A DNA stretch of 33,518 nucleotides from Comamonadaceae bacterium (GTDB lineage Bacteria > Pseudomonadota > Gammaproteobacteria > Burkholderiales > Burkholderiaceae_C): NCBI GenBank assembly GCA_947448885.1, contig CANFPJ010000017.1, positions 1 to 33,518 on the forward strand, given 5' to 3'. Position 1 is the stretch's first letter. Each line of letters opens with the position of its first letter. A program made the translations under genes and the position numbers. The notes under the pieces are model-generated. The model did not search any database, was not told the DNA's origin, and saw only the letters and a list, made by a program, of their open reading frames with translations. Below are positions 1,827 to 17,988 of the stretch, one piece after another.

Positions 1827-1849
1827 GATTCTTCCGGTTATGAATCATG
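1824..1849. repeat. Perfect 8-bp inverted repeat over the primase start codon
   Basis: CATGATTC (1824-1831) and GAATCATG (1842-1849) flank a 10-base spacer. In the primase mRNA the start codon lies in the 3' arm and the GGAAG ribosome-binding site lies at the loop/stem junction, so folding would hide the start. As DNA it is also a plausible repressor operator, overlapping the start of the opposing transcript. Confidence 0.55.
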
Positions 1850-1889
1850 CCGAACGCAGGAATATGTGTTGGTCTGCGACTCGGCAAGG

Positions 1890-1921
1890 TAAACAAAGCC
1901 CCACCAGTTGGCGCTGGTGGG
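1890..1921 (-). terminator. Rho-independent terminator in the primase leader
   Basis: On the minus strand CCCACCAG, a 6-base loop (CGCCAA) and CTGGTGGG form a perfect 8-bp stem followed by GCTTTGTTT. The T-rich tail is present only in this direction. It lies about 65 bases before the primase start, so it would attenuate transcription entering that gene. Confidence 0.6.
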
Positions 1922-2083
1922 AGTCCTTGACACTTGAATCGCAAACAAATTTAACGTGGCTGTTGTTCCACGACAGTCACTACAGGCGGTCATTACCGTA
2001 GTGGCTGCTACCTTTATGCCGAAGGCACCGAAGTTGTTTCAAGGCAATATGCAAACTTCGTAACCCACCATGGTGGTGGAGTG
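1890..2083 (-). ncRNA. Candidate structured leader RNA upstream of the primase
   Basis: About 190 bases between a minus-strand promoter (2089-2117) and a terminator (1890-1921), with no convincing open frame. Reading 5' to 3' there are successive foldable elements: palindrome CCACCATGGTGG (2065-2076); CGAAGTT/AACTTCG arms (2029-2035 and 2054-2060); a TGCC/GGCA mini-hairpin near 2020; a compound hairpin with CACTAC/GTAGTG outer arms (1978-1983, 1998-2003) and a GGT/ACC inner stem; CGTGG/CCACG (1955-1959, 1968-1972); then the terminator. The layout recalls premature-termination control such as the P4 satellite CI RNA leader, but no sequence homology to it is claimed. Confidence 0.45.
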
Positions 2084-2088
2084 ATGAG

Positions 2089-2117
2089 ATATTAACCCAA
2101 CTCTTTCGGCTAATCAA
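2089..2117 (-). promoter_or_regulatory. Sigma70-like promoter for the leader RNA/primase
   Basis: On the minus strand TTGATT (2117-2112), a 17-base spacer and TAATAT (2094-2089). It sits just after the integrase stop codon and points at the primase gene. Four of six positions match the consensus in each box, with ideal spacing. Confidence 0.45.
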
Positions 2118-2136
2118 ATGTTCAGCCGAGTTTTTT
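2105..2136 (+). terminator. Rho-independent terminator on the plus strand
   Basis: TTCGGCT (2105-2111) pairs with AGCCGAG (2124-2130, one G-T pair) across a 12-base loop, followed directly by six T residues (2131-2136). It overlaps the 3' end of the integrase gene and would stop transcription arriving from the 1791-1819 promoter. There is no T run on the opposite strand. Confidence 0.6.
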
Positions 2137-3105
2137 CGCCAAGTCTATTGCCGATGGCCGGTAATATCGTTTGAGCACCATCAGGCTCTTGTGCCCGCTG
2201 ACCGCAGCCAACTCGATCACGTTGGGTAACCTTTCTGCCATACGTGTGATCGCCGTGCGTCTCAAGTCATGGAATCGAACTCCGTCCAAACCCGATCGAC
2301 GAACTCCTCTTTTGAACGCTGCATCCAGCGTGAAATATTTCACTGGAATCACCACACCGCTGATATGCCGGGGCAACTCAGCCAACACATTAACCGCAAC
2401 CGAGGAGAGTGGTACGGTCCGAGAATCACCATTTTTAGTATCGGGTAAGAAAGCCGTCCGCCCCTGCAAGTCAATGTGCTCCCATTTCAATGAGAGTAAC
2501 TCACCCCGACGCATCGCAGTTGCAAGCGCAAGCTGTACCGCTGGTTTGGTCCAATGGCTCCTGCGCCCAGTCGGCTCCAGAGCTTGCAACAATTTAGAAA
2601 TCTCCTCATCGTTTAACACCCGTGAGCGAGCTTGCGGACTTTGTGGCTTACGGACCATCTGAACAGGGTTTGGAACATTTATGCCCCATTCCCTACGAGC
2701 GTGATTGATGATGGCCGAGAGGTATGCCAGTTCGCGGATTACCGTGCCACCACTGACCTCTGTGAGTCGCTCATCCCTGAAACCAGCAATACGGCTTGCA
2801 CTCAGGTTTGCCATACTCCACTGTGCGATTGGATTGCGCATGATGGCTTTTAGTCTGATGGTGTCCGATGTTGCGCCTTTCATGGTCGGTGTCACCTCTT
2901 TCAGATACCGCGCAATCGCATCGCCTAAGGTAGTCCGGTGGGCCTCGTTGACGCTGACGAACTGCCCTTTGTCTAATTCGGACTCGACCGACCGAGCCCA
3001 TTTCTCAGCTTCACCCTTGGTTTCAAATGTCTTGGTGACCTCTGGGTAACCTTGACGGCGTACACGCGCTTGCCAGCCGTTGCCGTGTTGTCTAAACGAT
3101 GCCAT
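2122..3105 (-). CDS. Site-specific tyrosine recombinase (phage/island integrase)
   Basis: The 327-residue protein has the usual layout: an N-terminal arm-binding region (about 1-55), a SAM-like core-binding domain (about 58-140) and a catalytic domain (about 160-327). Catalytic residues can be placed: Arg199 in TAMRRGEL, Lys224 in TKNGD, His279 and Arg282 in HDLRR, His305 in SGHKS, and nucleophile Tyr314 in LKRYY. I chose ATG 3105 because GAGGAA lies five bases before it; an in-frame ATG at 3138 would add 11 residues but has no better ribosome-binding site. It catalyses integration and excision of the element, whose right end must lie close by, between this gene and moaC. No excisionase gene is visible. 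Confidence 0.92.
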   Translation of the reverse strand: MASFRQHGNGWQARVRRQGYPEVTKTFETKGEAEKWARSVESELDKGQFVSVNEAHRTTLGDAIARYLKEVTPTMKGATSDTIRLKAIMRNPIAQWSMANLSASRIAGFRDERLTEVSGGTVIRELAYLSAIINHARREWGINVPNPVQMVRKPQSPQARSRVLNDEEISKLLQALEPTGRRSHWTKPAVQLALATAMRRGELLSLKWEHIDLQGRTAFLPDTKNGDSRTVPLSSVAVNVLAELPRHISGVVIPVKYFTLDAAFKRGVRRSGLDGVRFHDLRRTAITRMAERLPNVIELAAVSGHKSLMVLKRYYRPSAIDLAKKLG

Positions 3106-3119
3106 GACTGTTCCTCGAT

Positions 3120-3137
3120 TGGGACAGAAATGGGACA
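3120..3137. repeat. Direct repeat TGGGACA upstream of the integrase
   Basis: Two identical TGGGACA heptamers (3120-3126 and 3131-3137) are separated by GAAA, immediately before the integrase ribosome-binding site. Short direct repeats here are what arm-type integrase or excisionase binding sites look like; a role in attachment or autoregulation is inferred. Confidence 0.4.
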
Positions 3138-3181
3138 AAGCCTTATTCCAAAGGTGGCTCCATAATTGATTTGTTAGCGCC
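3138..3181. other. Probable right boundary (attachment region) of the mobile element
   Basis: Composition changes from moderate G+C (integrase side) to the high G+C host style within this stretch, which is squeezed between the integrase leader and the last codon of moaC. The attachment core should lie here or in the 3' end of moaC. The partner copy is outside the window, so the core cannot be defined. Confidence 0.4.
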
Positions 3182-3660
3182 TACTCCCCCGCCACAAAAC
3201 TCCCACTCTTGCCCCCGTGCTTTTCTAAAAGCTTCACATCGGTCATCACCATGCCACGGTCAGCGGCTTTGCACATGTCGTAAATCGTCAATAGCGCCAC
3301 TTGCACCGCGGTGAGGGCTTCCATTTCGACGCCAGTGGGGCCCAGGGTTTCGGCGCTGGCTTTGCACACCACGCTGGGGTTGGCGTGGTCCAGCTCAAAG
3401 CTGACGGTCACCCGGGTGAGCGCCAAGGGGTGACACAAGGGGATGAGGTCGCTGGTTTTCTTCGCCGCCATGATGCCGGCCAAGCGGGCCACGCCCAGCA
3501 CATCGCCTTTTTTGGCGTTGCCATGCGCAATCAATTCCAGGGTGCGCGCTTGCATGTGGATGCGGCCTTGGGCCACGGCCACGCGGTGGGTGTGGGCTTT
3601 TTGCGCCACGTCAACCATGTGGGCTTGGCCATGCGCATCAAAGTGGGTGAGTTCGGACAT
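3181..3660 (-). CDS. moaC: Cyclic pyranopterin monophosphate synthase MoaC
   Basis: MoaC converts the MoaA product (3',8-cyclo-7,8-dihydro-GTP) to cyclic pyranopterin monophosphate, the first stable intermediate of molybdenum-cofactor synthesis, in the cytosol. The 159-residue protein is full length for the family. It has [18 protein letters not shown] (52-69), LIPLCHPL (72-79), the [10 protein letters not shown] block (110-119), and Asp128 and Lys131 at the positions I recall as catalytic in E. coli MoaC. ATG 3660 (MSELTHF) was chosen because the further upstream frame has no family similarity. It is transcribed divergently from the M48 protease gene. The mobile element lies directly downstream, and the reading frame is intact. 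Confidence 0.96.
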
Positions 3661-3732
3661 GCGGTGTGTGGGGGTCGGGTTGCAAATGCGCGTCCGTTGG
3701 TGGGCGCGGGGTAACATGCCCATCATACGGTC

Positions 3733-5307
3733 ATGAACAGTCCTTTTGCCCTTGCCCCATGGTTGCGCCGCTGCTGGTGCGTGCCGCGTGCGGCCGTGTT
3801 GTGCGCGACGATGTTGGCGCTGCCCCTGCCCTTGTCACAGGCCCAAGGCGTGGCGCCATCGCGCTTGCCCAGCTTGGGGGACGCGGGCGATATTTCTTTG
3901 GTCTCGGAGCGGCGCATTGGCGACAGCATCATGCGCGAGATTTACAAAGACCCCGATTACCTGGACGACCCGGTGTTGGGCGAGCAAATGCAGCAAATTT
4001 GGTTGCGTTTGATGCAAGCCGCGCGCGACCGCGGCGAGTTGTCGGCCGAGTTGCAACAGCGCTTTGCCTGGGAAGTGAGCCTGATCCGCGACCCCAGCGT
4101 GAACGCCTTTGCCATGCCGGGGGGCTATTTGGGCGTGCATTTGGGTTTGATCGCCACGGTGGGCAACCGCCATGAGCTGGCCTCGGTGTTGGCGCATGAA
4201 TTGACCCATGTGACGCAACGCCACATTGCGCGCTTGATGTCGCGCCAAAGCCAACAGTCGCCGCTGCTGATGGGGGCCATGTTGTTGGCCATTTTGGCGG
4301 CCAGCAAAAGCCCCACCGCTGGCACCGCGATGATCTCAGGCGGTCAAGCGCTGGCGATCCAAACCCAATTGAATTTTTCCCGCGACATGGAGCGCGAGGC
4401 CGATCGGGTGGGCTTTGGGGTGATGGCCGATGCGGGCTTTGACACCCAGGGTTTTGTCGGCATGTTTGAAAAGCTGCAAATCGCTGCGCGCTTGAATGAC
4501 CGGGGCAACTACCCTTATTTGCGCAGCCACCCGTTGACCACTGAGCGCATTGCCGACATGCAATTGCGCCAACCCGGTTTGGCCCAAAGCAAACCCGCCC
4601 AAGCCGATTGGGACGATGTGCTCACCGGGGCGCGCGCCCGGGCCTTGGTGCAAACCAGCGTGGAGGGCATGCGCCGTTTGTCCGAGGCCGCCCAAGACAG
4701 CGACTTGGACACTTATGCGCCACAGCGCCAAGCCGCGGTGCTGTATGCCGCGGTGCTGTCTGACCTGCGCTTGAAGCAAGCCTTGCCCGCGCAGCAAAAG
4801 TTGGCGCGTTTGGGCCCCTTGCTGTCGCAGGCTGCACCCGTGTGGTGGCGCGGTGCGCGCGCTGAAGTGGCTTTGCAAACGGGCCAAGCGCAAGCGGCGG
4901 TGGATGTGCTGCAGCCGCAGATGTCGCGCCAAAACCGCGCCGAGGTGTTGTGGCTCGCCCAAGCGCGGCTGGCCTTGCGCCAAACCGCCACCTGCGATGC
5001 CGCTGCCCAAGATTTGGAGGCCTGGATGCTCTCGCGCCCACGTGACGCGCTGGCCTGGACCTTGTTGTCACAGGCCTTGCAGTGCCAGGGCAAAACCTTG
5101 CGCGCCATTCGCGCCCAGGCCCAGGTGCATTGGTTGCAGCACGATCTGACCGGGGCCCAAGACCGCTTGCGCGCCGCCCAAGCCTTGGTGCAGCAAAAAA
5201 CCCGCGACGGGCAAATGGAGCGCGGCGATCACATCGAGGCGTCGATCATTGACGCCAATTTGCGCGAGTTGGACTCACTGCGGCGGGAACAATTGCTTCA
5301 GCGCTGA
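3733..5307 (+). CDS. BepA-like M48 metalloprotease with C-terminal TPR region
   Basis: A 524-residue periplasmic zinc protease related to BepA/YfgC, which degrades or assists misassembled outer-membrane proteins such as LptD and BamA. Residues 1-38 form a signal peptide with a basic n-region, a hydrophobic core and an AQA-G cleavage area. HELTH at 155-159 supplies two zinc-binding histidines and the catalytic glutamate, and Glu222 in MEREADR is the third zinc ligand. Residues about 295-515 are alanine-, glutamine- and leucine-rich helical repeats consistent with TPRs. The gene is head-to-head with moaC, and its last 33 bases overlap the convergent membrane-protein gene. E. coli BepA is somewhat shorter (about 490 residues). 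Confidence 0.93.
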
Positions 5308-8281: not shown

Positions 8282-8899
8282 ATGAAACTCATTGGTGCCC
8301 TCACCAGCCCTTACGTTCGCAAAGTGCGCATCGTGATGGCCGAAAAAAAACTCGACTATCAATTTGTTTTAGAAGACGTGTGGTCGGCCCAAACCGCCAT
8401 TGCTTTGTCCAACCCCTTGGGCAAGGTGCCTTGTTTGATCATGGAAGGTGGCGAGGCCTTGTTTGACTCGCGGGTGATCGTCGAGTACCTGGACACCTTG
8501 TCGCCGGTGGGCAAGCTCATCGCTTCGTCGGGGCGCGAGCGCGCCGAAATCAAAACCTGGGAGGCCTTGGCCGATGGTTTGTTGGATGCGGCCATCCTGG
8601 CCCGTTTGGAAAACACCTGGCCCGGTCGCGAAGAAGGCCAACGCAGCCCCGCTTGGGTGGCGCGGCAAATGGACAAAATCGATTTGGCCTTGAGTGCCAT
8701 GGCCCGCGGCTTGGGCGAGCGCAGTTTTTGCTCGGGCACGCATTTCAGTTTGGCCGATATTGCCGTGGGTTGTGCCCTGGGCTACTTGGACTTTCGCTTT
8801 CCCCAGATCGATTGGCGCAGCCAACACCCGGTGCTGGACAAACTGCACGAGCGCTTGAGCCAGCGCAGCAGCTTCAGCGAGACCGCGCCGCCGGCTTGA
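8282..8899 (+). CDS. Glutathione S-transferase (YibF-like)
   Basis: A 205-residue cytosolic protein. The thioredoxin-like N-terminal domain (1-80) has TSPYVRKVRI at 8-17, with the serine commonly used by this class, the cis-proline region NPLGKVPCLI (44-53) and the glutathione gamma-Glu-binding DSRVIVEYL (62-70). The helical C-terminal domain has the folding motif FSLADIAVGCALGYLDFR (around 153-170). It resembles E. coli YibF most closely from memory; the substrate is unknown. It starts head-to-head with purB, with a TAGAAT -10-like box at 8248-8253. The 3' end overlaps the convergent NTF2-like gene by 26 bases. Confidence 0.93.
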   Translation: MKLIGALTSPYVRKVRIVMAEKKLDYQFVLEDVWSAQTAIALSNPLGKVPCLIMEGGEALFDSRVIVEYLDTLSPVGKLIASSGRERAEIKTWEALADGLLDAAILARLENTWPGREEGQRSPAWVARQMDKIDLALSAMARGLGERSFCSGTHFSLADIAVGCALGYLDFRFPQIDWRSQHPVLDKLHERLSQRSSFSETAPPA

Positions 8900-9371
8900 C
8901 GGGTGCGTTGACCCGTCGCTTGAGCCAGCGCATCAAGCCGCCCAGCAGCGGCAGTTTTTCATACAACTCTTCGGCCACGTCCCAGTAGTCGCGGTGGCGC
9001 TGGATGCGCCAGCGCCCATCGGTGCCGGGTGCGAGCCACAAATGCGAGGCACCGCGCACGGTGATCTCGCTGCTTTGGCCGCGGATGCCAAACACAAAGT
9101 CCCAGGTCAAAAAGCATTGGTGGCCTTGCACCACCCGGGCGGTCACGATGAAGCGCGGTTGGTTCAAGCTGTCGTACATGTGCTGAAAAATGCCGCGCAC
9201 CGCGTCCACGCCTTGAACCTCGTTGAACGGGTCTTTGAACCAAGCGTCGGTGGTGTAAACCTCGCCCAAGCGGACCAGGTGAGCGGGTGTCATCTCAGAA
9301 AAAAAACGCTCGATGGCCGCCAGGTCCGTGGCCGGCACGTCATCTGCCATGGGGGTGGTGGGCGTGCTCAT
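8874..9371 (-). CDS. NTF2/SnoaL-like protein, last gene of the lipid operon
   Basis: A 165-residue protein with the cone-shaped NTF2/SnoaL fold pattern: an N-terminal helix (AIERFFSEM), the YTTDAWFKDPFNEVQG strand, and a C-terminal sheet ending WRIQRHRDYWDVAEELYEKLPLLGG. Such proteins bind small hydrophobic molecules or act as isomerases; the substrate here is unknown. ATG 9371 overlaps the upstream dehydrogenase stop by four bases (ATGA), which argues for this start over alternatives upstream. NTF2-like proteins are, from memory, regular members of proteobacterial clusters with SDR, DUF1365, Cfa-like and DUF3833 genes, often beside a stress sigma factor. It ends inside the convergent glutathione S-transferase gene. 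Confidence 0.87.
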   Translation of the reverse strand: MSTPTTPMADDVPATDLAAIERFFSEMTPAHLVRLGEVYTTDAWFKDPFNEVQGVDAVRGIFQHMYDSLNQPRFIVTARVVQGHQCFLTWDFVFGIRGQSSEITVRGASHLWLAPGTDGRWRIQRHRDYWDVAEELYEKLPLLGGLMRWLKRRVNAPVKPAARSR

Positions 9372-10144
9372 GGGCGAGGGCGGGTCATGCGGGCCACCAG
9401 CGGGAAGTACCACGCATAAGGCAAGATGCGCATCAGCTTCATCCAGCGGGTGAAGCGCTTGGGAAAGTGGATTTCAAAGTCGCCGCTCTGCCAGCCTTGC
9501 AACATGCATTGGGCGGCGTCGGCGGGCTGCATCAGGGCCGGCATGTGGAAGTCGTTTTGCGCCGTCAGCGGGGTTTGCACAAAGCCGGGGTTGACCACGC
9601 TCACCCCCAAGCCTGCCGGGTGCAGGTCGAAGTACAAGGCCTCGGCCAAATGGGTGAGGGCGGCTTTGGTCGGCCCATAGGCCAGGCTTTTGGGCAGGCC
9701 TCGGTAGCCGGCCACGCTCGACACCAGGCTCACATGGCCGTGCCCTTGCGCCAACAAGCGCGGCAGCAGCACGTCCAGCACGCGCAGGGCGCCGGTGTAG
9801 TTCACATCTTGGTGGCGCAGCATGTCGGGCAGGTCAAACTGGGTGGCGTCGTGGGCTTGGTAGTGGCCGGCGCAGTACACCACCCAATCCAGGCCATGTT
9901 CGCCCCAGGCGGCGCTGGCGGCTTGGGCCACGCTGGTGGCATCGGTCACGTCCATCGCCAGGGCGCGCGCGCCGGGGTGTTGGGCCACAAACCCGTCCAG
10001 GGCAGCGGCTTTGCGCGCCGACACACACACGCTGGCCCCAGCCTGGTGCAAGGCCTGGGCACAGGCCAGGCCAATGCCGCTGGAGGCACCAATCAACCAC
10101 ACCCGTTGACCGCGCCAAGATGCCAACGTGGGGTTCAAAGCCAT
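9368..10144 (-). CDS. Short-chain dehydrogenase/reductase
   Basis: A 258-residue NAD(P)-dependent oxidoreductase. The cofactor motif GASSGIG is at 19-25. The catalytic set is Asn115, Ser143, Tyr156 and Lys160 (YGPTK). The C-terminal region is basic and hydrophobic (KRFTRWMKLMRILPYAWYFPLVARM), suggesting membrane association, as in SDRs acting on lipids. ATG 10144 has GGAG five bases upstream, located inside the preceding 40-codon gene, with which it overlaps by 10 bases. It probably acts on a fatty-acid or lipid-derived carbonyl in the operon's pathway; that is inference from context. Confidence 0.92.
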   Translation of the reverse strand: MALNPTLASWRGQRVWLIGASSGIGLACAQALHQAGASVCVSARKAAALDGFVAQHPGARALAMDVTDATSVAQAASAAWGEHGLDWVVYCAGHYQAHDATQFDLPDMLRHQDVNYTGALRVLDVLLPRLLAQGHGHVSLVSSVAGYRGLPKSLAYGPTKAALTHLAEALYFDLHPAGLGVSVVNPGFVQTPLTAQNDFHMPALMQPADAAQCMLQGWQSGDFEIHFPKRFTRWMKLMRILPYAWYFPLVARMTRPRP

Positions 10145-10257
10145 GTGCGCTCCATGGCGATGTCCATGCAGCTGCCGCACACAGGGGTGCTGATGCGGCC
10201 CATGCCGAAGGGGCAGGTGCCAGCCACTGCATCCCTGCGATGGCGGGCTGGCGTCAT
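10135..10257 (-). CDS. 40-residue cysteine-containing small protein
   Basis: A short frame that exactly fills the gap between the DUF3833 and SDR genes. Its ATG (10257) overlaps the DUF3833 stop as ATGA, and its TGA lies 10 bases inside the SDR gene, so the whole operon is coupled without a break. The protein has Cys15 in GTCPFG and a Cys27-x2-Cys30 pair (VCGSC), ending in a Met/Glu/Arg/Thr/Trp-rich tail (MDIAMERTW). There is no signal peptide or membrane segment. Three cysteines could bind metal or act in redox. No family is recognised; coding status rests on the overlaps and the SDR ribosome-binding site being embedded within it. Confidence 0.6.
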   Translation of the reverse strand: MTPARHRRDAVAGTCPFGMGRISTPVCGSCMDIAMERTWL

Positions 10258-10799
10258 GCCCCGCCCCGCTTGGTGAACGACAGGGTGACATCGCCCAAGT
10301 GGATGCCCCACTTGCTCATGCGCGCTTTGTTGAGCATCACGCGTTCGTCCATTTGGTACATCCAATCATCGAACTGCACCTCCCACACCCGGCCATCGAC
10401 CGGCAAGGCCAGGGTGTAACCCCATTGAAACGCATTGCCTTGGGTTTGGCCCTGGGCTTCGCCGATCACGTCGTCGGCGCGGCCGCTGTAGCGGCCTTGG
10501 CCCAAATGGCGCAAACGCCAAATGCGCTGCTGTTTTGTGCCGTCGCTGTAGCTGAACTGTTCGTCGAGCACACCTTCCTCACCGCTCCAGCGGCAATCCA
10601 TCACCACCGTGAAGCGCTTGACCACTTTGCCGTTGCGATCGGTGAAGATGCCCCAGGCATCGACCATGCCGTTGAAGTATTGGCGCAGGTCCAGGCGCGG
10701 CAGCTCTTGGGCCAAGTCTTCAATGCGCGGCCCCGCACAACCGGCCAAAGTGGCCAAGGCACCGACCGGTGCAGCCAGCAACAAGGAACGACGCTTCAT
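10254..10799 (-). CDS. DUF3833 family lipoprotein
   Basis: A 181-residue predicted lipoprotein: basic n-region (MKRR), hydrophobic core, and lipobox LAGC with Cys21. The mature part is beta-rich, with DRNGKVVKRFTV, YSGRADDVIGEAQGQ and the conserved ending WGIHLGDVTLSFTK, typical of DUF3833, a lipocalin-like family of unknown biochemical function. ATG 10799 overlaps the transporter stop (ATGA) and has GGAG seven bases upstream. Its place with Cfa-like, DUF1365 and flavin amine-oxidase genes suggests a role at the membrane in handling modified lipids; that is inference. Confidence 0.9.
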   Translation of the reverse strand: MKRRSLLLAAPVGALATLAGCAGPRIEDLAQELPRLDLRQYFNGMVDAWGIFTDRNGKVVKRFTVVMDCRWSGEEGVLDEQFSYSDGTKQQRIWRLRHLGQGRYSGRADDVIGEAQGQTQGNAFQWGYTLALPVDGRVWEVQFDDWMYQMDERVMLNKARMSKWGIHLGDVTLSFTKRGGA

Positions 10800-12139
10800 G
10801 GGGGGGTCTCCGTGGGGGGTGGTGGGGTCAGCGGGTGCCGGTGCAGCCACAGGCACAGGGCGGCCGCCGCTTTGAGCAGGCAAGGCATTAGGCCATAAGC
10901 GCAGCTGAGCGTCCACAGGCCGGCCGCATCCTGTTGACCGGGTGTGTAGCCCCACCATTGCAGGGCGGGCAAGGTGAGTCCAGCGGCCAAGGCCAGGTTG
11001 AGTTTGGTCGCCACCTGCCACCAGCCCCAGTACAGGCCTTGGTTCGTTTGCGCCTGGCCCAAGCGCTGCACCACGCCCGTGAGCAAAGCGCCCGGCGCGA
11101 TCACGTCTGCGCCCAAGGCCAAGCCCGACAACACGCACATCCAGCCAAAGGCCAGGGTGTCACCGGTCCCCAAGCCCAGGGTCCAGATGAACACCCCCAT
11201 GGCCAACCCCATGCCGGCCAACCAACAGCGCACCAAGCCCCAGCGTTGCACGGCACGCAACCACAACGGCATGGACAAGGCAGCGGCGCAAAAGTACAAG
11301 GCCAAAAAAACGCCATCTTGACCGGGCGCTGCTTGCAAACGGTCTTGTACAAAAAACAGCACCAAGGTGGCCGGGATCGCGCTGGCAATGCCATTGAGCA
11401 CAAACACCGCCAATAAGCTGCGAAACAGCGGCTGCGCCAGTGGTGCGCCCATGCGCAAGGGCGCCTGGGTCGGTGCGATGGGCTGCGCACGCTGGGCGTT
11501 CTCATGGCATGCAACCGTGGTTGCTGGTGCAGGCGCAGGCGCCCGGTGCCATGCCCACAGCGCCACCACCAAGGCCACAGCCAACACCGCCACCATGGCG
11601 CCCACACCGGCCGTGGCACTCAACACGCTGGCGCAGATCACCCCCAACAAGCCCAGGCCTTCGCGCCAGCCCACCAAGCGACTGCGCTGGGCTTCATCGC
11701 CCCCCAGGCGCGCGCCCCAGGATTGGTGGGCCAAGCCCAAGGTGCTCAGGCCCACACAGCACGCCACCAAGGCCGCACCGGCCACCGCCATCAAGCCCCA
11801 GGCGGGGGCCGGTGTCGGCAAGACCCAGTGCGGAAAAAACAAAAACACCAAGCCCACGAGCAACAAGACGCTGCACGCGCGCGCCCAGGCCAACACCCGT
11901 GAACTGGCTTGGGCAAACCAGCCATCGGTGCAGCGCCCCAACCAAGGGTCGATGAAGGCGTCGCCCAAACGCGCGACCAGCAGCAAGGCGCCGATCCACG
12001 ACAGGGGCAGGGCGTAGGTGTTGGCATAGTGGTGGGGCAGCACCACGTACAAGGGCAAGGCCACAAAGGCCAGCGGCAAGCCCATCGCACCCAGGCGTGC
12101 CAGGTCTGCGCGCCCCAGCGGCCATGGGCCGGTGCTCAT
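10796..12139 (-). CDS. GPH-type (MelB-like) MFS transporter
   Basis: A 447-residue integral membrane protein with about 12 hydrophobic segments. Near residues 55-75 it has the DAFIDPWLGRCTDGW pattern, the D-x3-DP-x2-G-x3-D signature of the glycoside-pentoside-hexuronide cation symporters. A central loop (about 195-230) is Ala/Pro/Gln-rich. The substrate is not known; in this context a sugar is unlikely, and a lipid precursor or signal is possible. ATG 12139 overlaps the upstream gene stop as ATGA; the longer frame upstream was rejected because it lies inside that gene. The downstream stop overlaps the DUF3833 start. Confidence 0.88.
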   Translation of the reverse strand: MSTGPWPLGRADLARLGAMGLPLAFVALPLYVVLPHHYANTYALPLSWIGALLLVARLGDAFIDPWLGRCTDGWFAQASSRVLAWARACSVLLLVGLVFLFFPHWVLPTPAPAWGLMAVAGAALVACCVGLSTLGLAHQSWGARLGGDEAQRSRLVGWREGLGLLGVICASVLSATAGVGAMVAVLAVALVVALWAWHRAPAPAPATTVACHENAQRAQPIAPTQAPLRMGAPLAQPLFRSLLAVFVLNGIASAIPATLVLFFVQDRLQAAPGQDGVFLALYFCAAALSMPLWLRAVQRWGLVRCWLAGMGLAMGVFIWTLGLGTGDTLAFGWMCVLSGLALGADVIAPGALLTGVVQRLGQAQTNQGLYWGWWQVATKLNLALAAGLTLPALQWWGYTPGQQDAAGLWTLSCAYGLMPCLLKAAAALCLWLHRHPLTPPPPTETPP

Positions 12140-12765
12140 GGCTTGGCCAAGCCCAGCAATTGCTGGCGCAGTTCGGGCGCAGACGTGGACGGGTCGAGCC
12201 AAATGCCCATGAAAACCCGCGCGAGCAAGGTGTCTGGGGTGGCGCCCAGGGCGCGCAACTCGACACCCTCATGCCACATTTGCAAGCCTTGGGAGGGGTG
12301 ATACACCGCGATCAAGCGCTCGCCTTCGCGCACATCGCTGAGCAGGGTTTGCAATGGCGCCAGCCAGGCTGCCGCGGCGCCCTCGGGCATCAAGGGGTGG
12401 CGGCGCATCTCCTCGATGCTGCGCTGGGCAATCGACGGCCCTTGCAGGGCGCGTTGGTAGCGCAGCGACAACACCACCGGTTGTTGCGGCCACGACTGCG
12501 CGGGATCGCCCAGGCCTGGCCCCGCCCACAGTTGGGCTTGGTACACCGCAAACCCAAAATAGCGAAAGTTCGCTTGGCCCAGCAACTTGGGCGCACCCAA
12601 CCAGCGCGCCAACCCGGCGGACAAAGCCGCACTGGGCGCGAGCCCGCTGTCTGCACTGGCGCCCGAGGGGCGTGGCGCTGAGAGGCTGGGTGGCCCCGCC
12701 TGAACCGTTGCGAGCGCGCAAGCCAACGCCGCCGCCACGGCCCAGACCCGGCACCGTGGGCTCAT
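12136..12765 (-). CDS. Secreted chalcone-isomerase-like protein
   Basis: A 209-residue protein with a signal peptide (residues 1 to about 25, basic start MSPRCR then an Ala/Leu/Val core ending VQAG), so probably periplasmic. The mature domain has GQANFRYFGFAVYQAQLW (around 66-83), VLSLRYQRALQG and IAVYHPSQGLQMWHEG, the pattern of bacterial chalcone-isomerase-like domains. These bacterial members generally lack flavonoid isomerase activity and may bind fatty acids. ATG 12765 overlaps the Cfa-like stop as ATGA, which fixes the start. Confidence 0.85.
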   Translation of the reverse strand: MSPRCRVWAVAAALACALATVQAGPPSLSAPRPSGASADSGLAPSAALSAGLARWLGAPKLLGQANFRYFGFAVYQAQLWAGPGLGDPAQSWPQQPVVLSLRYQRALQGPSIAQRSIEEMRRHPLMPEGAAAAWLAPLQTLLSDVREGERLIAVYHPSQGLQMWHEGVELRALGATPDTLLARVFMGIWLDPSTSAPELRQQLLGLAKP

Positions 12766-13985
12766 GGTTTGTGCAAGGTGTATTGCACCACGTCGGTGTT
12801 GGCTTCCATGAAGGCGGCTTCGCAATACGCCAAGTAAAACTGCCAAATGCGCACAAAGCGCTCGTCAAAGCCCAAGGCCAGCACCTGCGGCTTGACCTGC
12901 ATGAAGCGCTCGCGCCACACGCGCAAGGTGTGGGCATAGTCCACACCAAACGCAAACTCGTCGACCACGCGCAGGCCCGCAGCTTGGGCCTGTTGGCGAA
13001 ACGCGCTGGGCGACGGCAAGCAGCCACCGGGAAAGATGTATTGCTGGATGAAATCGGTGCCGCGCACATAGCGATCAAAGTAGCTGTCGGCGATCACAAT
13101 GCTTTGGATGCAGGCGCGGCCGCCGGGCTTGAGCAAACGCGCCACGGTCTCGAAATAGGTGGGCCAGTAGGCTTGGCCCACCGCCTCGATCATTTCGATG
13201 GAGCAAATGGCATCGAAGGGGGCGTCGCTGATGTCGCGGTAGTCTTGCAAGCGAAATTGCGCCTGCGCCCCCAAGCCCTGATCAGCCAGGCGCTTTTGGG
13301 CATGCGCGAGTTGCTGCTCGCTGAGGGTGACGCCGGTGAAATCCACGCCCCATTCGCGGGTGGACATTTCGGCCAGTGCGCCCCAGCCGCAGCCGATTTC
13401 GAGCAGGCGTTGGTTGTGCCCCGGTGTGAGGTTGACCATGCGCAGCGCCCGGCGCACTTTGGCGTCTTGCGCTTGGGCCATGGGCAGCATGGGGTTGCCA
13501 TCGAACCAGGCCGACGAGTAGTTCATGGTCTCGTCCAGCCACAGGCTGTAGAAGGCATTGCCCAGGTCGTAATGGGCATGGATGTTTTTGCGGCTGTTGC
13601 TGCGTGTGTTGCGGTTGAGCCAGTGGCGCAAGCGGTGCGCCAACTGGCCCCACCAGCGGCCGTAAATCACGGCTTCCAGTGCATTGCGGTTGGCAATGAA
13701 CACGCGCAGCAAGGCGCACAAATCGGGGGTTTCCCATTCGCCGGCGATGAACGACTCGGCAAAGCCAATGTCGCCACTGCGCATGGCCGCGGCAAACACC
13801 CCCCAGTCGTGCACCACCAGGCTGGCGCTGGGGTGTTCGCTGTGGCCGTACACCGTTTCGCTGCCATCGGGCAGGCGCAGGTGCAAGCGGCCGTGTTGGA
13901 GTTTTTGCAGCAGGGGCAACACCCGGCGTGCGGCCAAGGGCATGTCGGTGGGCAGGCGGTGCTGCGGCGCGGTGGAGGTGTTCAT
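12762..13985 (-). CDS. Cfa-like fatty-acyl-phospholipid methyltransferase
   Basis: A 407-residue SAM-dependent enzyme of the cyclopropane-fatty-acyl-phospholipid synthase family: NIHAHYDLGN at 134-143, SAM loop LEIGCGWG (195-202), IEMIEAVG (265-272) and YIFPGGCLPS near 320. It transfers a methyl or methylene group to unsaturated acyl chains of membrane lipids. Compared with my recollection of E. coli Cfa, the bicarbonate-binding Cys139 aligns with Ser158 (YSSAWF versus YSCAYW) and His266 with Gln296 (CIQSIV versus LLHTIG), while Glu239 is kept (Glu269). This suggests a divergent member that may methylate rather than cyclopropanate. ATG 13985 is chosen over an upstream TTG. It follows the DUF1365 gene by 14 bases. 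Confidence 0.92.
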   Translation of the reverse strand: MNTSTAPQHRLPTDMPLAARRVLPLLQKLQHGRLHLRLPDGSETVYGHSEHPSASLVVHDWGVFAAAMRSGDIGFAESFIAGEWETPDLCALLRVFIANRNALEAVIYGRWWGQLAHRLRHWLNRNTRSNSRKNIHAHYDLGNAFYSLWLDETMNYSSAWFDGNPMLPMAQAQDAKVRRALRMVNLTPGHNQRLLEIGCGWGALAEMSTREWGVDFTGVTLSEQQLAHAQKRLADQGLGAQAQFRLQDYRDISDAPFDAICSIEMIEAVGQAYWPTYFETVARLLKPGGRACIQSIVIADSYFDRYVRGTDFIQQYIFPGGCLPSPSAFRQQAQAAGLRVVDEFAFGVDYAHTLRVWRERFMQVKPQVLALGFDERFVRIWQFYLAYCEAAFMEANTDVVQYTLHKP

Positions 13986-13999
13986 CGTTTCAGCTCGGC

Positions 14000-14794
14000 T
14001 CAACGGGTGACAAATTCAGAGGGGCGATGCGGCTTGGGCACATACGGGATGCGCTGCCACCACAGTTTCATGGCCTGCCAGTGGATGCGGGTGATCACGC
14101 CCCAGGTCATCAAGGGGTAGCGCCACACGGCGCGCCGAAGGCTGTGCGCGCTCACCGGCACCAGGTCCCCGCTGACGCTGGTTTGCAGCAGCGGGCCTAG
14201 AGCGTCGTCGTGGTCGATGCGCACCACGGTGCGCTCGCCCTCATCGCGCTGGGTGCGCATGAAGCGAAAACGGTAAACGCCTTCGATGTGACAAAACGGC
14301 GAAACATGGAACACCTTGGACGCGGTTTGCTCCACCCCCCAAAGGGGCGTGGGCAGCAAATAACAATGGCGCTCGCCAAAGGTGTTGTTGACCTCCACCA
14401 CGATGGCGCGCAGGCTGTGGTCTTGGCGGTGGCAATACCAAAAACTCACGGGTTTGAAGGCATAGCCCAGCACCCGGGGGTAGCAGTGCAGCCACACCTC
14501 GCCATCGGCGTCGTCGATGCCTTCACGCGCCAATAGCTCGAGCATCCAGGCCAAGGACCCGCCTTCAGCGGCGCTGCGGCCGTCGCCGTGGTCGGTGTCG
14601 TGAAAGCTCAGCGCGGCGCGCCGGTTCAGCGCCAAAGCACCGCCGCCATGGGCTTGCAGGTGCCGCATGGGCAGCATCAAAAAGTAAGTGGGGTAGGCAA
14701 AGGCATGGGCTTGGGGTTTCAAGCGCGCATGGCGCACCTGGCCAAACCCCAGCAAGGGCCCGATCGGCGCGCGGGGCATCCAGGCGTGGCTCAT
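14000..14794 (-). CDS. DUF1365 family protein
   Basis: A 264-residue protein with features typical of DUF1365: VRHARLKPQAHAFAYPTYFLMLPM near the start, LHCYPRVLGYAFKPVSFWYCH in the middle, VVEVNNTFGERHCYLLP, and KVFHVSPFCHIEGVYRF. The many His, Tyr and Cys residues suggest metal or heme binding, but no activity is established to my knowledge. DUF1365 genes lie almost constantly beside flavin amine-oxidase-like and Cfa-like genes, so it is taken as part of the same lipid pathway. ATG 14794 overlaps the flavoprotein stop (ATGA). Confidence 0.92.
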   Translation of the reverse strand: MSHAWMPRAPIGPLLGFGQVRHARLKPQAHAFAYPTYFLMLPMRHLQAHGGGALALNRRAALSFHDTDHGDGRSAAEGGSLAWMLELLAREGIDDADGEVWLHCYPRVLGYAFKPVSFWYCHRQDHSLRAIVVEVNNTFGERHCYLLPTPLWGVEQTASKVFHVSPFCHIEGVYRFRFMRTQRDEGERTVVRIDHDDALGPLLQTSVSGDLVPVSAHSLRRAVWRYPLMTWGVITRIHWQAMKLWWQRIPYVPKPHRPSEFVTR

Positions 14795-16089
14795 GAACGG
14801 GGCCCGGCCATGCTCGCGGTCAAGATGCCGCGCGCGGCGGCCTGACCGGCGCGCAAGCCGTCTTCGTGAAAGCCGTAACCCAGCCACGCACCGGCATACC
14901 AGGTGCGTTGTTGGCCTTGCAAGGCCGCCATGTGGCGCTGCGCCGCGATGGCGGCCAGGTCAAACACCGGGTGGTCGTAGGCGTAACGGCCCAGCACCTG
15001 GGCGGGGTCGATCTCGCGCAAGGGGTTGAGCGAAACGATCACCGCTTGGTCAAAAGGTAGCGGTTGCAATTGGTTGATCCAGTAGTGCAAGCACACCTGT
15101 TGCTGTTCGCGCGCGGTCTCGGTGCTGCGCTCATAGTTCCAGGCCGCCCAGGCCAGTTTGCGCTGGGGCATCACCGTGGCGTCGGTGTGCAACACCGCTT
15201 CATTGGGCTGGCTGCGAATGGCCGCCAAGGTGCTGGCTTCTTCCAAGCTGGGTTGGGCCAGCAAGGCCAGGGCTTGGTCGGCATGGCAGGCCAGCACCAC
15301 GTGGTCAAAGGCTTCGGGGCCGTTGTCGGTGAACACCCGCACCCCCGCCGCGGTGCGCTCGATGCGCCGCACCGGTGTGCGCAAGCGCTTGTCGTCGATG
15401 CGTTCGGTGATGCGCGCCACATATTGGCGCGCCCCGCCGCGCACGGTGTGCCAGCGCGGGCGGTGGTTGACCTGGATCAGGCCATGGTTGTGGCAAAAGC
15501 GGATCAAGGTGGCCACCGGAAAGCGCAGCATTTGATCGGTGGGGCAGCTCCAAATGCAGCCCAACATCGGCAGCAAATACCAGTCGCGAAACACCGGGCC
15601 AAACTGGTGCGCGGCCAAAAAATCTTCCAGGGGTTGTTGCAACTCGGCATCTTTGCCTTGTTCGGCCAGGCCGCTGGCCAGGGTGTTGAAGCGCAGCACG
15701 TCGCGCAACATGGCCCAAAAGCGTGGGCGCAGCAAGTTGCTGCGCTGGGCAAACACGGTGTTGAGGGTGGCCCCGTTCCACTCCAAGCCGGGCGACCCAT
15801 CGGGGCGTGGCACTTGCACCGAAAACGACATGTCCGACGCCGCGCTGGGCACGCCCAATTCGGCCAGCAAGGCGATCAGCCCCGGGTAGGTGCGCTCGTT
15901 GAACACCAAAAACCCGGTGTCCACGCCGTGGGTGGTCGGCTGGCCGCCGCTGGGCAAGGTGACGTCCACGGTGTGGGTGTGACCGCCAAAGTAGTCACCC
16001 GCCTCCAACAGGCTGATCTGGGCATGGCCATGCAAGGCGTGGGCCGCAGCCAAACCGGCAATGCCTGAACCAACAATGGCAATTTTCAT
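14791..16089 (-). CDS. FAD/NAD(P)-dependent flavin amine-oxidase-like protein
   Basis: A 432-residue flavoprotein. The N-terminal dinucleotide-binding motif GSGIAGLAAAHAL begins at residue 7, followed by the acidic strand end (LLEAGDYFGGHTHT) and the second FAD motif VDTGFLVFNERTYP. The C-terminal GAWLGYGFHEDGLRAGQAAA region completes the FAD site. This class, always near Cfa-like and DUF1365 genes, is often misnamed amine oxidase; a desaturase-type role on acyl chains has been proposed for relatives in furan-fatty-acid synthesis, as I recall. It is the second gene of the run, 67 bases after the peroxidase gene. Confidence 0.93.
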   Translation of the reverse strand: MKIAIVGSGIAGLAAAHALHGHAQISLLEAGDYFGGHTHTVDVTLPSGGQPTTHGVDTGFLVFNERTYPGLIALLAELGVPSAASDMSFSVQVPRPDGSPGLEWNGATLNTVFAQRSNLLRPRFWAMLRDVLRFNTLASGLAEQGKDAELQQPLEDFLAAHQFGPVFRDWYLLPMLGCIWSCPTDQMLRFPVATLIRFCHNHGLIQVNHRPRWHTVRGGARQYVARITERIDDKRLRTPVRRIERTAAGVRVFTDNGPEAFDHVVLACHADQALALLAQPSLEEASTLAAIRSQPNEAVLHTDATVMPQRKLAWAAWNYERSTETAREQQQVCLHYWINQLQPLPFDQAVIVSLNPLREIDPAQVLGRYAYDHPVFDLAAIAAQRHMAALQGQQRTWYAGAWLGYGFHEDGLRAGQAAARGILTASMAGPRS

Positions 16090-16156
16090 TCGGTATTCAA
16101 AAAGAAAGTTCGATCGGGCACATGGGCCCGCAGTGTAAGGATTTTGACAAAAAGTG
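16090..16156 (-). promoter_or_regulatory. Peroxidase-flavoprotein intergenic region with inverted repeats
   Basis: 67 bases with lower G+C. TGACA (16145-16149) and TGTCA (16155-16159) form a 5-bp inverted repeat across the peroxidase stop, and GGGC/GCCC arms lie near 16122-16135. I see no clear -35/-10 pair, so the flavoprotein gene may be read through from the peroxidase gene or use an alternative sigma factor. Confidence 0.3.
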
Positions 16157-16819
16157 TCAGGGCAGCTTGACGTTCAGTTGCTTTTCCACTTCGGCGACAA
16201 AGCTTTTGTCCTGGGGGCTGGTCATGCTGCTGAAGGCGACCGCATGGGTGCCATCGCGGGCGATCACATATTTATAGAAGTTCCAGCGCGGCCGGGTGCC
16301 CGTGAGCTCGCTCAATTGTTTGAACAAAGGCACGGCTTGGTTGCCGGTGACGCTGGTTTTGGTGAACATGGGGAACTTCACCCCAAAGGTGTTTTCGCAA
16401 AAGTCGGCGATCTTTTGGTTCGAATCCGGTTCTTGGGAAAAGTCGTTGGAGGGAAAGCCCAGCACCACCAAACCGCGCCCTTTGTAGCGGGCGTACAAAT
16501 CTTCCAAGCCCTTGTACTGTGGCGTGAAGCCGCAAAAACTGGCGGTGTTGACCACCACCACCACCTGACCGGTGTATTGGCACAGGGATTGGGGTTTCTC
16601 GTCTTGCAGCCGGTCGTGGGTGTGGCGCAGCAGGCGCGGGCAGGCCGCAGCAGCGTTGGCCGGTGTGCTGGCGGATGCCGGGGCGCTGGCGCCGACCGGG
16701 CCCGTGGTTTGCGCCACCGCAGCGCCCAGCCCGGCCCTACACCCGGCGGCGCACAGCCACAGGGCCAAGCCCACCTGGGCCAGGAAAGGGGTCGGGGGGG
16801 TGGATGGGTGCAGTTTCAT
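16157..16819 (-). CDS. Exported glutathione-peroxidase-family protein
   Basis: A 220-residue peroxidase with an N-terminal signal or anchor (about 8-36) and an Ala/Ser/Pro linker (37-60), so it is probably periplasmic or membrane-attached. The thioredoxin-fold domain has peroxidatic Cys96 in NTASFCGFT, Gln129 in SQEP, and Trp179-Asn180 (RPRWNFYKY), which make the catalytic tetrad. Cys141 (ADFCENTFG) is a candidate resolving cysteine, pointing to thioredoxin-dependent rather than glutathione-dependent reduction, as in most bacterial members. It reduces lipid or organic hydroperoxides. It is the first gene after the divergent MerR promoter region and probably heads the lipid operon. Confidence 0.92.
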   Translation of the reverse strand: MKLHPSTPPTPFLAQVGLALWLCAAGCRAGLGAAVAQTTGPVGASAPASASTPANAAAACPRLLRHTHDRLQDEKPQSLCQYTGQVVVVVNTASFCGFTPQYKGLEDLYARYKGRGLVVLGFPSNDFSQEPDSNQKIADFCENTFGVKFPMFTKTSVTGNQAVPLFKQLSELTGTRPRWNFYKYVIARDGTHAVAFSSMTSPQDKSFVAEVEKQLNVKLP

Positions 16820-16870
16820 GGGGCGGTCCAATGCGGAGGGTGGCACTTGCGGGGGTGGCGGGTAAGTCTG

Positions 16871-16900
16871 GCCGATTCAGGGACCTGGCCCTGAATCGGC
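16871..16900. repeat. Perfect 12-bp inverted repeat
   Basis: GCCGATTCAGGG (16871-16882) and CCCTGAATCGGC (16889-16900) flank ACCTGG. No T run follows on either strand, so it is not an intrinsic terminator. It lies 52 bases upstream of the peroxidase start and in its likely 5' leader, so it is either an operator or an mRNA hairpin. Confidence 0.6.
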
Positions 16901-16926
16901 ATCAGGCATTTGGCGTATCCCTGGGC

Positions 16927-16955
16927 TTGATTTTTGGCCTCAGATGGGCGATGAT
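16927..16955 (+). promoter_or_regulatory. Candidate promoter of the MerR/B12 regulator
   Basis: TTGATT (16927-16932), a 17-base spacer and GATGAT (16950-16955). The -10 box lies within a GGGCGA/TCGCCC inverted repeat (16946-16951, 16955-16960). Transcription would start near 16962, immediately before the 25-bp dyad, consistent with autorepression. Confidence 0.4.
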
Positions 16956-16966
16956 CGCCCAAACAG

Positions 16967-16991
16967 GTCGAATTGTCTAGGACAGTTCGAC
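16967..16991. promoter_or_regulatory. 25-bp dyad, candidate operator for the divergent regulator
   Basis: GTCGAATTGTC (16967-16977), TAG, GACAGTTCGAC (16981-16991): 11-base arms with one mismatch. In the minus direction, TTGGAA (17000-16995), a 16-base spacer and GACAAT (16978-16973) form a plausible promoter for the peroxidase/lipid operon, so the dyad would cover its spacer and -10. MerR-family regulators bind such dyads. That this regulator binds here is inference. Confidence 0.55.
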
Positions 16992-17022
16992 TATTCCAAG
17001 GCACCCACAAGGACATTGCTGC

Positions 17023-17988
17023 ATGAATTTTCGCGCCCAACCGCAGCCCTTGACCATGTCCATCGCCGGCGTCGAGCGCGACACCGGCTTGGCCAAAGAC
17101 ACCTTGCGCGTGTGGGAGCGCCGTTACGGCTTTCCGCAGCCGGGGCGCGATGCCTTTGGTGAGCGGGCCTATACCCTGCAAGACGTTGAAAAACTGCGCG
17201 TCATCAAGCGACTTCTCGACCAAGGCCACCGCCCGGGTCGGATCGTGGCTTTGCCCATTGAAGAGCTGCAGCGCTTGAGCCAAGGCATGTCGGGCGAGCG
17301 CGTGCACTGGGTGGCCCAAACCGATGAAGGCGAGGCCGAGGTCGATTTGCGCGATTTCATGCAAATGATCAAAGAGCACCGGTCGGAAGATTTGCGCCGG
17401 GCCTTCAGCCAAGCCGCCATCACCCTGGGGTTGACGCGGTTTGTCACCGAGGTGGTGGCGCCCCTGAATGTGATGGTGGGCGAGGCCTGGTTGCGGGGCG
17501 CCTTGGAGGTGTTTGAGGAACACCTCTACACCGAGTCGGTCACCACCGTCATCCGCCATGCCATTGGCAGCGTGCCCGAACAAGGCTTGCACAGCACCCC
17601 CAAGGTGTTGCTCACCACCTTTCCCCAAGAGTCGCATGCGGTGGGTTTGTTGATGGCCCAAAGCATCATGGCCATTGAGGGTTGCCGCTGCGTGTCCTTG
17701 GGGATTCAAACCCCCTTGCGCGACATTGTGTTGGCGGCGCAAGCGCACCAAGTGGATGTGGTGGCGTTGAGTTGCAGCATCAACATGAACCCCAACCAAG
17801 TGATCGATGGCTTGCAAGAGTTGCGCAGCATGTTGCCAGCCCATGTGACGATTTGGGCGGGCGGCAGCTCGCCGGCATTGCGCCGGCGCGAGATCCCCGG
17901 CATGGTGCCCCTGACCCAGCTCAGTGAAATCGCCCACGAGGTGCGCAAATGGCGCGCCACCCATGCGCCAAAAGCCCCTCAGCGCTAA
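17023..17988 (+). CDS. MerR-family B12-binding photoreceptor regulator (CarH/LitR type)
   Basis: A 321-residue regulator. Residues 12-80 are a MerR winged helix-turn-helix (SIAGVERDTGLAKDTLRVWERRYGFPQP). Residues 105-185 form the helical cap and contain Trp156-x9-Glu166-His167, the W-x9-EH signature of adenosylcobalamin-binding CarH. Residues 194-310 are a Rossmann-like B12-binding domain with E-S-H205-A-V-G (the lower-ligand histidine motif), SCSIN near 250 and WAGGSS near 280. CarH/LitR proteins repress in the dark as B12-bound oligomers and release DNA on light. The residue after Trp156 is Leu, not the His of Thermus CarH. ATG 17023 has AAGGA about nine bases upstream. Divergent from the peroxidase/lipid operon, its probable target. 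Confidence 0.9.
   Translation: MNFRAQPQPLTMSIAGVERDTGLAKDTLRVWERRYGFPQPGRDAFGERAYTLQDVEKLRVIKRLLDQGHRPGRIVALPIEELQRLSQGMSGERVHWVAQTDEGEAEVDLRDFMQMIKEHRSEDLRRAFSQAAITLGLTRFVTEVVAPLNVMVGEAWLRGALEVFEEHLYTESVTTVIRHAIGSVPEQGLHSTPKVLLTTFPQESHAVGLLMAQSIMAIEGCRCVSLGIQTPLRDIVLAAQAHQVDVVALSCSINMNPNQVIDGLQELRSMLPAHVTIWAGGSSPALRRREIPGMVPLTQLSEIAHEVRKWRATHAPKAPQR

Follow-up and report, generated by a model that had tools for sequence, protein, structure and literature searches.

A LitR/CarH-type regulator opposite putative furan fatty acid genes in a Comamonadaceae bacterium: a candidate light switch for membrane lipids

Whether a cobalamin-dependent photoreceptor may control genes for the protection of membrane lipids is the question raised by a locus in positions 1 to 33,518 of contig CANFPJ010000017.1 (Comamonadaceae bacterium, assembly GCA_947448885.1). 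This whole stretch of 33,518 nucleotides is referred to as the window, and it belongs to a host genome whose 215 contigs total 3.35 Mb and that is 88% complete. The open frames and Pfam matches reveal a divergon, in which a gene for a MerR-family regulator of the LitR/CarH type (17023-17988, + strand) stands opposite nine genes that run from 16819 to 8874 on the - strand. A preliminary description of this DNA had proposed a B12-photoreceptor-controlled operon for membrane-lipid modification and peroxide defence, an interpretation that is partly supported by the results presented here.

It is fairly probable that the regulator is an adenosylcobalamin repressor of the LitR/CarH type that would be relieved by light, and that it controls an operon whose putative product is a furan lipid protective against singlet oxygen. 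In the dark, the adenosylcobalamin-bound regulator would occupy a palindromic operator lying over the -35 element, and the operon would be off. Light would break the Co-C bond, the regulator would leave the DNA, and the operon would be transcribed. The methyltransferase, the flavin adenine dinucleotide (FAD)-dependent desaturase and the DUF1365 oxygenase would then convert phospholipid-bound cis-vaccenate into a methylated furan fatty acid that acts as a singlet-oxygen scavenger. The transporter, the lipocalin-like lipoprotein, the short-chain dehydrogenase/reductase (SDR) and the NTF2-like protein would play accessory parts, and peroxides would be cleared by the putatively exported glutathione peroxidase. 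As judged from sequence, these bacteria probably turn on membrane protection when lit.

Linked genes, cobalamin residues and a conserved dyad

Three genes of the run encode a UfaD-like FAD-dependent oxidoreductase of the amine-oxidase kind (14791-16089, -; Pfam Amino_oxidase), a UfaO-like DUF1365 protein (14000-14794, -; Pfam DUF1365) and a UfaM-like methyltransferase of the Cfa family (12762-14003, -; Pfam CMAS). In Rhodobacter sphaeroides, UfaM is reported to methylate cis-vaccenate, UfaD (an NAD/FAD-binding protein related to phytoene dehydrogenase) to desaturate, and UfaO, which carries the DUF1365 domain, to use O2 in forming the furan fatty acid (PMC7380195). The same source reports that this fatty acid disappears when cells meet singlet oxygen, against which it shields them, that three R. 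palustris homologues restore the pathway in an R. sphaeroides mutant, and that single deletions of RSP1087, RSP1088 or RSP1089 left a fatty acid profile with no change that it describes as detectable (PMC7380195). All three Ufa-type genes are present together in the window, and their order (FAD, DUF1365, Cfa) is the UfaD-UfaO-UfaM order suggested by consecutive R. palustris locus tags (PMC7380195).

The linkage of these genes to the regulator is conserved. A contig scan with the regulator alone was used, from which the best 80 of 91 loci were retained; 58 loci have 8 kb or more of sequence on the side of the operon, and genes were called in them by score thresholds. The FAD, DUF1365 and Cfa genes lie together opposite the regulator in 47 of the 58, with identical order in 47/47. 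Counted singly, the FAD and DUF1365 genes were each found in 48 of these loci, Cfa and DUF3833 in 47, the transporter, SDR and NTF2 genes in 46 and the chalcone-isomerase-like gene in 43. With this linkage and order, the arrangement is far beyond chance. In addition, a sample of 199 further genomes of the order was surveyed with a regulator cut-off of E <= 1e-30: the regulator was found in 64, DUF1365 in 90 and both in 60 (Fisher p 3e-23, uncorrected for kinship), and in these 60 the two lie within 12 kb of each other in 49 and are divergent in 41. DUF1365 is present in 60 of the 64 genomes positive for the B12-type MerR gene. Azoarcus sp. KH32C, an annotated plasmid-borne relative, carries the run from FAD to NTF2 in the order of the window. 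The locus is also carried by a metagenome contig labelled Bordetella parapertussis (L043), a label that is doubtful given that its near twins are freshwater-type Burkholderiales.

The regulator passes the Pfam cut-offs for the MerR helix-turn-helix domain (MerR_1) and for both cobalamin domains, the helix bundle (B12-binding_2) and the Rossmann domain (B12-binding), and its assignment also draws on a solved-structure search, a structure model and individual residues. The two cobalamin motifs previously noted, W-x9-E-H and E-x-H-x-x-G, were located at W156...E166-H167 and E203-S-H205-A-V-G208, respectively. In Thermus thermophilus CarH (TtCarH), adenosylcobalamin is held by W131, E141, H142, H177 and a GxxxP element; the corresponding residues W156, E166, H167, H205, G227 and P231 are invariant in 93/93 regulators. 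This alignment consists of 80 contig-scan loci, 12 genome-search loci and the window; minus-strand genome-search loci were dropped, and it contains one exact duplicate protein and some species twice. The identity between Thermus CarH and the window regulator is 28%. An AlphaFold2 model of the regulator (mean predicted local distance difference test score, pLDDT, 85.9) predicts a CarH-like fold: the best 50 of 105 Foldseek matches in the PDB (E <= 0.001) are all Thermus CarH/LitR or Chloracidobacterium CtMerR, and 5c8a_B aligns with a template modelling score of 0.85 by target length and a root-mean-square deviation of 2.6. A cobalamin adenosyltransferase gene of family PF01923 is present in the host genome; a search of this 88% complete genome did not find the adenosyltransferase PF02572.

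A further finding, on which the preliminary description was silent, is a dyad between the regulator and the operon. The candidate operator is a 25-nt imperfect palindrome, GTCGAA-TTGTCTAGGACAG-TTCGAC (16967-16991), with the core TGTC-TAG-GACA at 16974-16984. The 93 divergent regions were reduced to 89 by removing two repeats and two short regions, and the dyad TGTC-N3-GACA occurs in 77 of them, the window included (shuffles, mean 0.47, maximum 3); it is often longer, TTTGTC-N3-GACAAA. Half-site spacings from 0 to 9 other than this one occur in 0 to 2 of the 89 regions. The only sigma-70-like site found in 16780-17060, TAGACA-17-GATCAT (16951-16979, -; shuffles, mean 0.2), reads into the operon, and the dyad covers its -35 hexamer (16974-16979). 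This geometry suits a repressor, and we regard the dyad as the putative operator of the divergent regulator. Of the 61 regulators accompanied by two or more core genes, 58 have the dyad beside them. The cobalamin residues in 93/93 regulators and the predicted fold support a cobalamin-type LitR/CarH regulator, and the dyad in 77/89 regions agrees with the earlier suggestion that the regulator is the likely direct switch.

The relatives also provide a connection to the CarH operator format, given as nnnnTnnACAn (PMC9304148). Two or more TGTnnA repeats at an 11-bp period occur in 15 of the 89 regions (20 shuffles, mean 0.55) and match this format, triple repeats occur in 8 (shuffles, 0), and each of the remaining periods between 7 and 16 is seen in 0-2 regions. 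When the host genome was searched with the pattern TTGTCYWNGACA, 5 strand-hits at 4 places were obtained, compared with 2 when the pattern was reversed. The remaining three places fall within or next to frames that appear unrelated by reading (no family search was made), so no further regulon targets are claimed. The pattern was found in 4 of five relative genomes and not in the fifth (G125), at 14 places, 4 of which are regulator divergons; five of the remaining 10 were inspected, and one lies beside another MerR gene. This last dyad (genome G148, L143:2564) is situated between the MerR gene, whose product has no Pfam B12 domain, and a gene for a small exported-looking protein.

Points against a light switch and other explanations

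Several observations weigh against the proposed switch. At the regulator, the position of TtCarH H132, the upper ligand after light in the bis-His light state of Thermus CarH, is Leu in the window, and His occurs in 0/93 regulators; DNA release must consequently work by another route than in TtCarH. The published light signature comprises GxxW, EH, GxxH and GxxxP (PMC11796333), and in the GxxH element the window regulator carries Q in place of the glycine, which is kept in 12 of the 93 regulators; the other three elements are present. The cut-off of the NCBIfam CarH equivalog NF052513 is missed (120 vs 400 bits), so that the regulator is a CarH relative rather than a CarH equivalog. At the DNA, the window has a single CarH-type repeat, inside the palindrome, and no tandem array; moreover, the dyad is absent beside 3 of the 61 regulators with at least two core genes and present beside 5 of 9 with no core gene, which ties its occurrence to the regulator no less than to the operon. 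As for linkage, 30 of the 90 DUF1365-positive genomes of the order have no regulator, and in two of three plasmid-borne close relatives inspected, those of Caballeronia NK8 and Comamonas endophytica, the regulator stands without such an operon beside it. Finally, the operon core is likely to represent the UfaM/UfaD/UfaO furan fatty acid genes, an assignment for which the proteins were compared with sigma-linked homologues, and one of the comparison records, from Cupriavidus, has a TetR gene next to the core.

The residues listed above would fit a regulator that senses cobalamin status or redox state, for which B12 or oxygen supply would be the signal and light would be incidental. The bis-His residue is missing throughout, 81/93 regulators have no GxxH glycine, and TtCarH H132A is reported to remain mostly tetrameric, failing to dissociate, after light; an earlier report had found otherwise (PMC10442372). 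The same residue is also missing from Chloracidobacterium CtMerR, which has Arg at this position, and yet light is reported to break up the tetramer of its cobalamin domain into monomers (PMC11796333). In addition, regulators of related gene sets are described as answering light or singlet oxygen (PMC9758184, PMC6852236). A sensor of cobalamin or redox state is considered unlikely.

The operon product might also be cyclopropane or simple methyl-branched acyl chains rather than furan fatty acids, as the methyltransferase belongs to the Cfa family. The operon-type enzymes have S or A at the position of E. coli Cfa C139 and Q at H266 in 61/61 rows (Ser and Gln in the window), whereas second Cfa copies in Mesorhizobium, Burkholderia and Cupriavidus keep C and H in 3/3 checked. 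Taken as proof of a non-cyclopropane enzyme, these replacements are weakened by cotton cyclopropane synthases, in which H266 is replaced (by Q in the text of the source) and C139S is reported in two of three (PMC3132707); the replacements thus mark a subfamily, not a proven reaction. Against a cyclopropane product stand the FAD and DUF1365 neighbours in the R. palustris ufaD-ufaO-ufaM tag order (PMC7380195). These neighbours also occur together elsewhere: 92 plasmid records have a DUF1365 match, and of the five inspected, the four from Alphaproteobacteria all have the FAD-DUF1365 pair opposite a sigma/anti-sigma pair. The two pairs adjoin in Mesorhizobium terrae (annotated ChrR) and Azospirillum B510 (cupin protein), and one gene separates them in Azospirillum thermophilum (annotated ChrR) and Paracoccus zhejiangensis (anti-sigma factor). 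A full-length Cfa-family gene is next in three of the four, and against three alphaproteobacterial sets the window proteins show 42-45% identity for FAD and 44-49% for Cfa. A cyclopropane or simple methyl-branched product is quite unlikely.

A third possibility is that the regulator acts independently of cobalamin through a partner photoreceptor, as class II LitR of Pseudomonas does with its short LOV protein. Class II LitR controls a related gene set and reportedly does not need B12, but it is also said to keep one of the two B12-binding domains (PMC9758184); here both domains pass Pfam and the ligand residues are invariant, and a partner photoreceptor appears improbable. That the run is a general oxidative-stress cluster with the regulator as a mere neighbour would suit the DUF1365-positive genomes and plasmid-borne relatives in which the two are apart, and is very improbable given the conserved divergent linkage and the dyad over the operon -35.

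Accessory genes and surroundings

The genes, strands, order and nearly gap-free run previously described are all confirmed by open frames and Pfam, with one exception. Gene junctions overlap by 4 nt in 6 of 8 cases, one of them conditional on a Cfa gene start at TTG 14003, and two intergenic gaps remain, of 67 nt (peroxidase/FAD) and 109 nt (DUF3833/SDR). The exception is the frame of 40 codons at 10135-10257 that had been listed as a "small Cys protein". Its residues 2-40 have no Pfam match, and among 50 loci checked at the same place a loose Cys-pattern frame occurs in 4, none alike by eye; as a gene it is unsupported.

The first gene of the run encodes a glutathione-peroxidase-family protein of the Cys type (16157-16819, -; Pfam GSHPx), for which the signal-like N-terminus suggests export. 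It is found in 22 of the 58 loci, and from this distribution it is classed as an accessory gene. The term "peroxide-defence operon" is less well supported for this reason. The likely chemistry behind "lipid modification" can be made more exact by naming the UfaM/UfaD/UfaO furan fatty acid genes. A second promoter-like site, CTGACA-17-TACACT (16132-16160, -), lies just upstream of the FAD gene and is possibly due to chance (region shuffles, mean 1.1); given this site, the peroxidase gene may be a separate transcription unit.

Downstream of the core, the chalcone-isomerase-like protein (12136-12765, -) is weakly called on its own (Chalcone_3, 23.6 bits vs a gathering cut-off of 27); the gene in the same slot in Azoarcus sp. 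KH32C is annotated as chalcone-isomerase-like and its product is 39% identical to the window protein over 155 aa. It is followed by a GPH/MFS-type transporter (10796-12139, -; Pfam MFS_2) and a DUF3833 protein (10254-10799, -; Pfam DUF3833) with a lipobox-like Cys21, which is invariant in 20 alignment rows, one of them doubtful (L052, 24%). The DUF3833 model is a calycin-like beta barrel (pLDDT 87.4) with weak Foldseek matches to BFA1 and lipocalins. The run ends with the SDR (9368-10144, -; Pfam adh_short, start read from sequence) and the NTF2/SnoaL-like protein (8874-9371, -; Pfam SnoaL_2), whose gene shares its last 26 nt (8874-8899) with the 3' end of a convergent glutathione S-transferase gene.

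In 28 of the 58 loci (for example, L047 and L073, the latter alone checked by Pfam), a gene for FolE2 (GCHY-1) adjoins the FAD gene, hinting at a pterin need; a search for FolE2 in the host genome, as far as it is complete, found none. GTP cyclohydrolase genes are also present in Pseudomonas and Burkholderia light clusters. The operon contains no photolyase gene; two such genes lie on other contigs, with no dyad in the 5 kb around them. Among the frames listed for 16 loci, in which no family search was made, no common gene was seen downstream of the regulator, and an rfaE-like gene lies within ~4 kb downstream in 20 of 69 loci. The order purB, glutathione S-transferase, operon, regulator, rfaE-like gene and glnE also occurs in the loci of two relatives (L033 and L051). 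Positions 1-4000 of the window have a G+C content of 0.51-0.56, compared with 0.61-0.68 over the remaining profile.

Meaning and comparison with known systems

Earlier work had already described the effector genes and connected them with light; the parts are ordinary and their pairing is unusual, with strong comparative support for a mechanism that we infer. The preliminary description had called the system little-described, which is less well supported, as a related set is reported to be light-inducible under Pseudomonas class II LitR (PMC9758184) and sigmaE-ChrR control of furan fatty acid genes is described in Rhodobacter (PMC7380195, PMC6852236). In the open-licence literature, as represented by listings and the beginnings of abstracts, no report of a B12-type regulator over this operon, or of this operator, was met; a survey of class III LitR may list the clade. 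We tentatively suggest that the betaproteobacterial furan operon was handed from a damage sensor (sigmaE-ChrR, responding to singlet oxygen) to an anticipatory B12 photoreceptor without the bis-His switch. If so, there would be a second way for adenosylcobalamin photolysis to free DNA, one serving membrane lipids rather than pigments, and in many Burkholderiales and Rhodocyclales B12 photoreception, known from carotenoid control, would also serve to protect membrane lipids. About 90 candidate photoreceptors without His132 bear on how cobalamin photolysis becomes DNA release, and a candidate operator and promoter are now named for this locus.

In Rhodobacter, sigmaE-ChrR (ECF11) likewise controls a UfaD-UfaO (FAD, DUF1365) operon, and ChrR responds to singlet oxygen (PMC7380195, PMC6852236), unlike the B12 light switch proposed here. 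As previously stated, no ChrR gene accompanies the locus: the best match in the 88% complete host genome scores 26.9 bits, and the family cut-off is 124.5. ChrR occurs in 1 of 200 genomes of the order at E <= 1e-20, and the sigmaE promoter pattern TGATC-N16-20-CGTA was not found in 16841-17030. Similarly, the Shewanella RpoE2 regulon with PgpD is reported to include a periplasmic glutathione peroxidase co-regulated with photolyase and cfa genes; it differs in its sigma-factor control and in a peroxidase located outside the cfa operon (PMC4336711).

In Pseudomonas mendocina, a set containing an FAD oxidoreductase, SDR, ufaM and phrB is reported to be induced by light under class II LitR and a LOV partner, with a 25- to 33-fold induction of ufaM (PMC9758184). 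The Pseudomonas PplR/PmlR regulators of this class share with the reading proposed for the window a light-controlled cluster with FAD oxidoreductase, SDR and ufaM, and a repressor logic; they differ, according to that source, in that a short LOV protein is the light sensor, B12 is not needed, the binding site reads TGTACA-N12-TGTACA and the cluster includes phrB (PMC9758184). This site does not occur in the divergent region of the window (16840-17026), where TGTACA, TATACA and TGTATA are all absent. Burkholderia anthina also has a MerR gene clustered with FAD, DUF1365, Cfa and chalcone-isomerase genes, but Pfam finds no B12 domain in its MerR protein, and the cluster includes a sigma/anti-sigma pair of its own; we infer that this MerR protein is a class III LitR, a class name taken from PMC9758184. 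A second MerR gene of the host genome (contig C85, L140:1643-2638, -) aligns with the B. anthina one. Neither protein has a Pfam B12 domain, both share the C-terminus CECPRH...E.YS..C, and the C85 protein is perhaps class III LitR-like.

The closest comparison is with Thermus thermophilus CarH (class I CarH/LitR), which has in common with the window regulator the MerR helix-turn-helix, two cobalamin domains, the W, E-H and H residues and the predicted fold. Compared with Thermus CarH, the window regulator lies beside a lipid operon rather than carotenoid genes and has no His132 equivalent, and the usual site of its relatives is the palindrome TTTGTC-N3-GACAAA. Similar lipid gene sets are found under three kinds of regulator.

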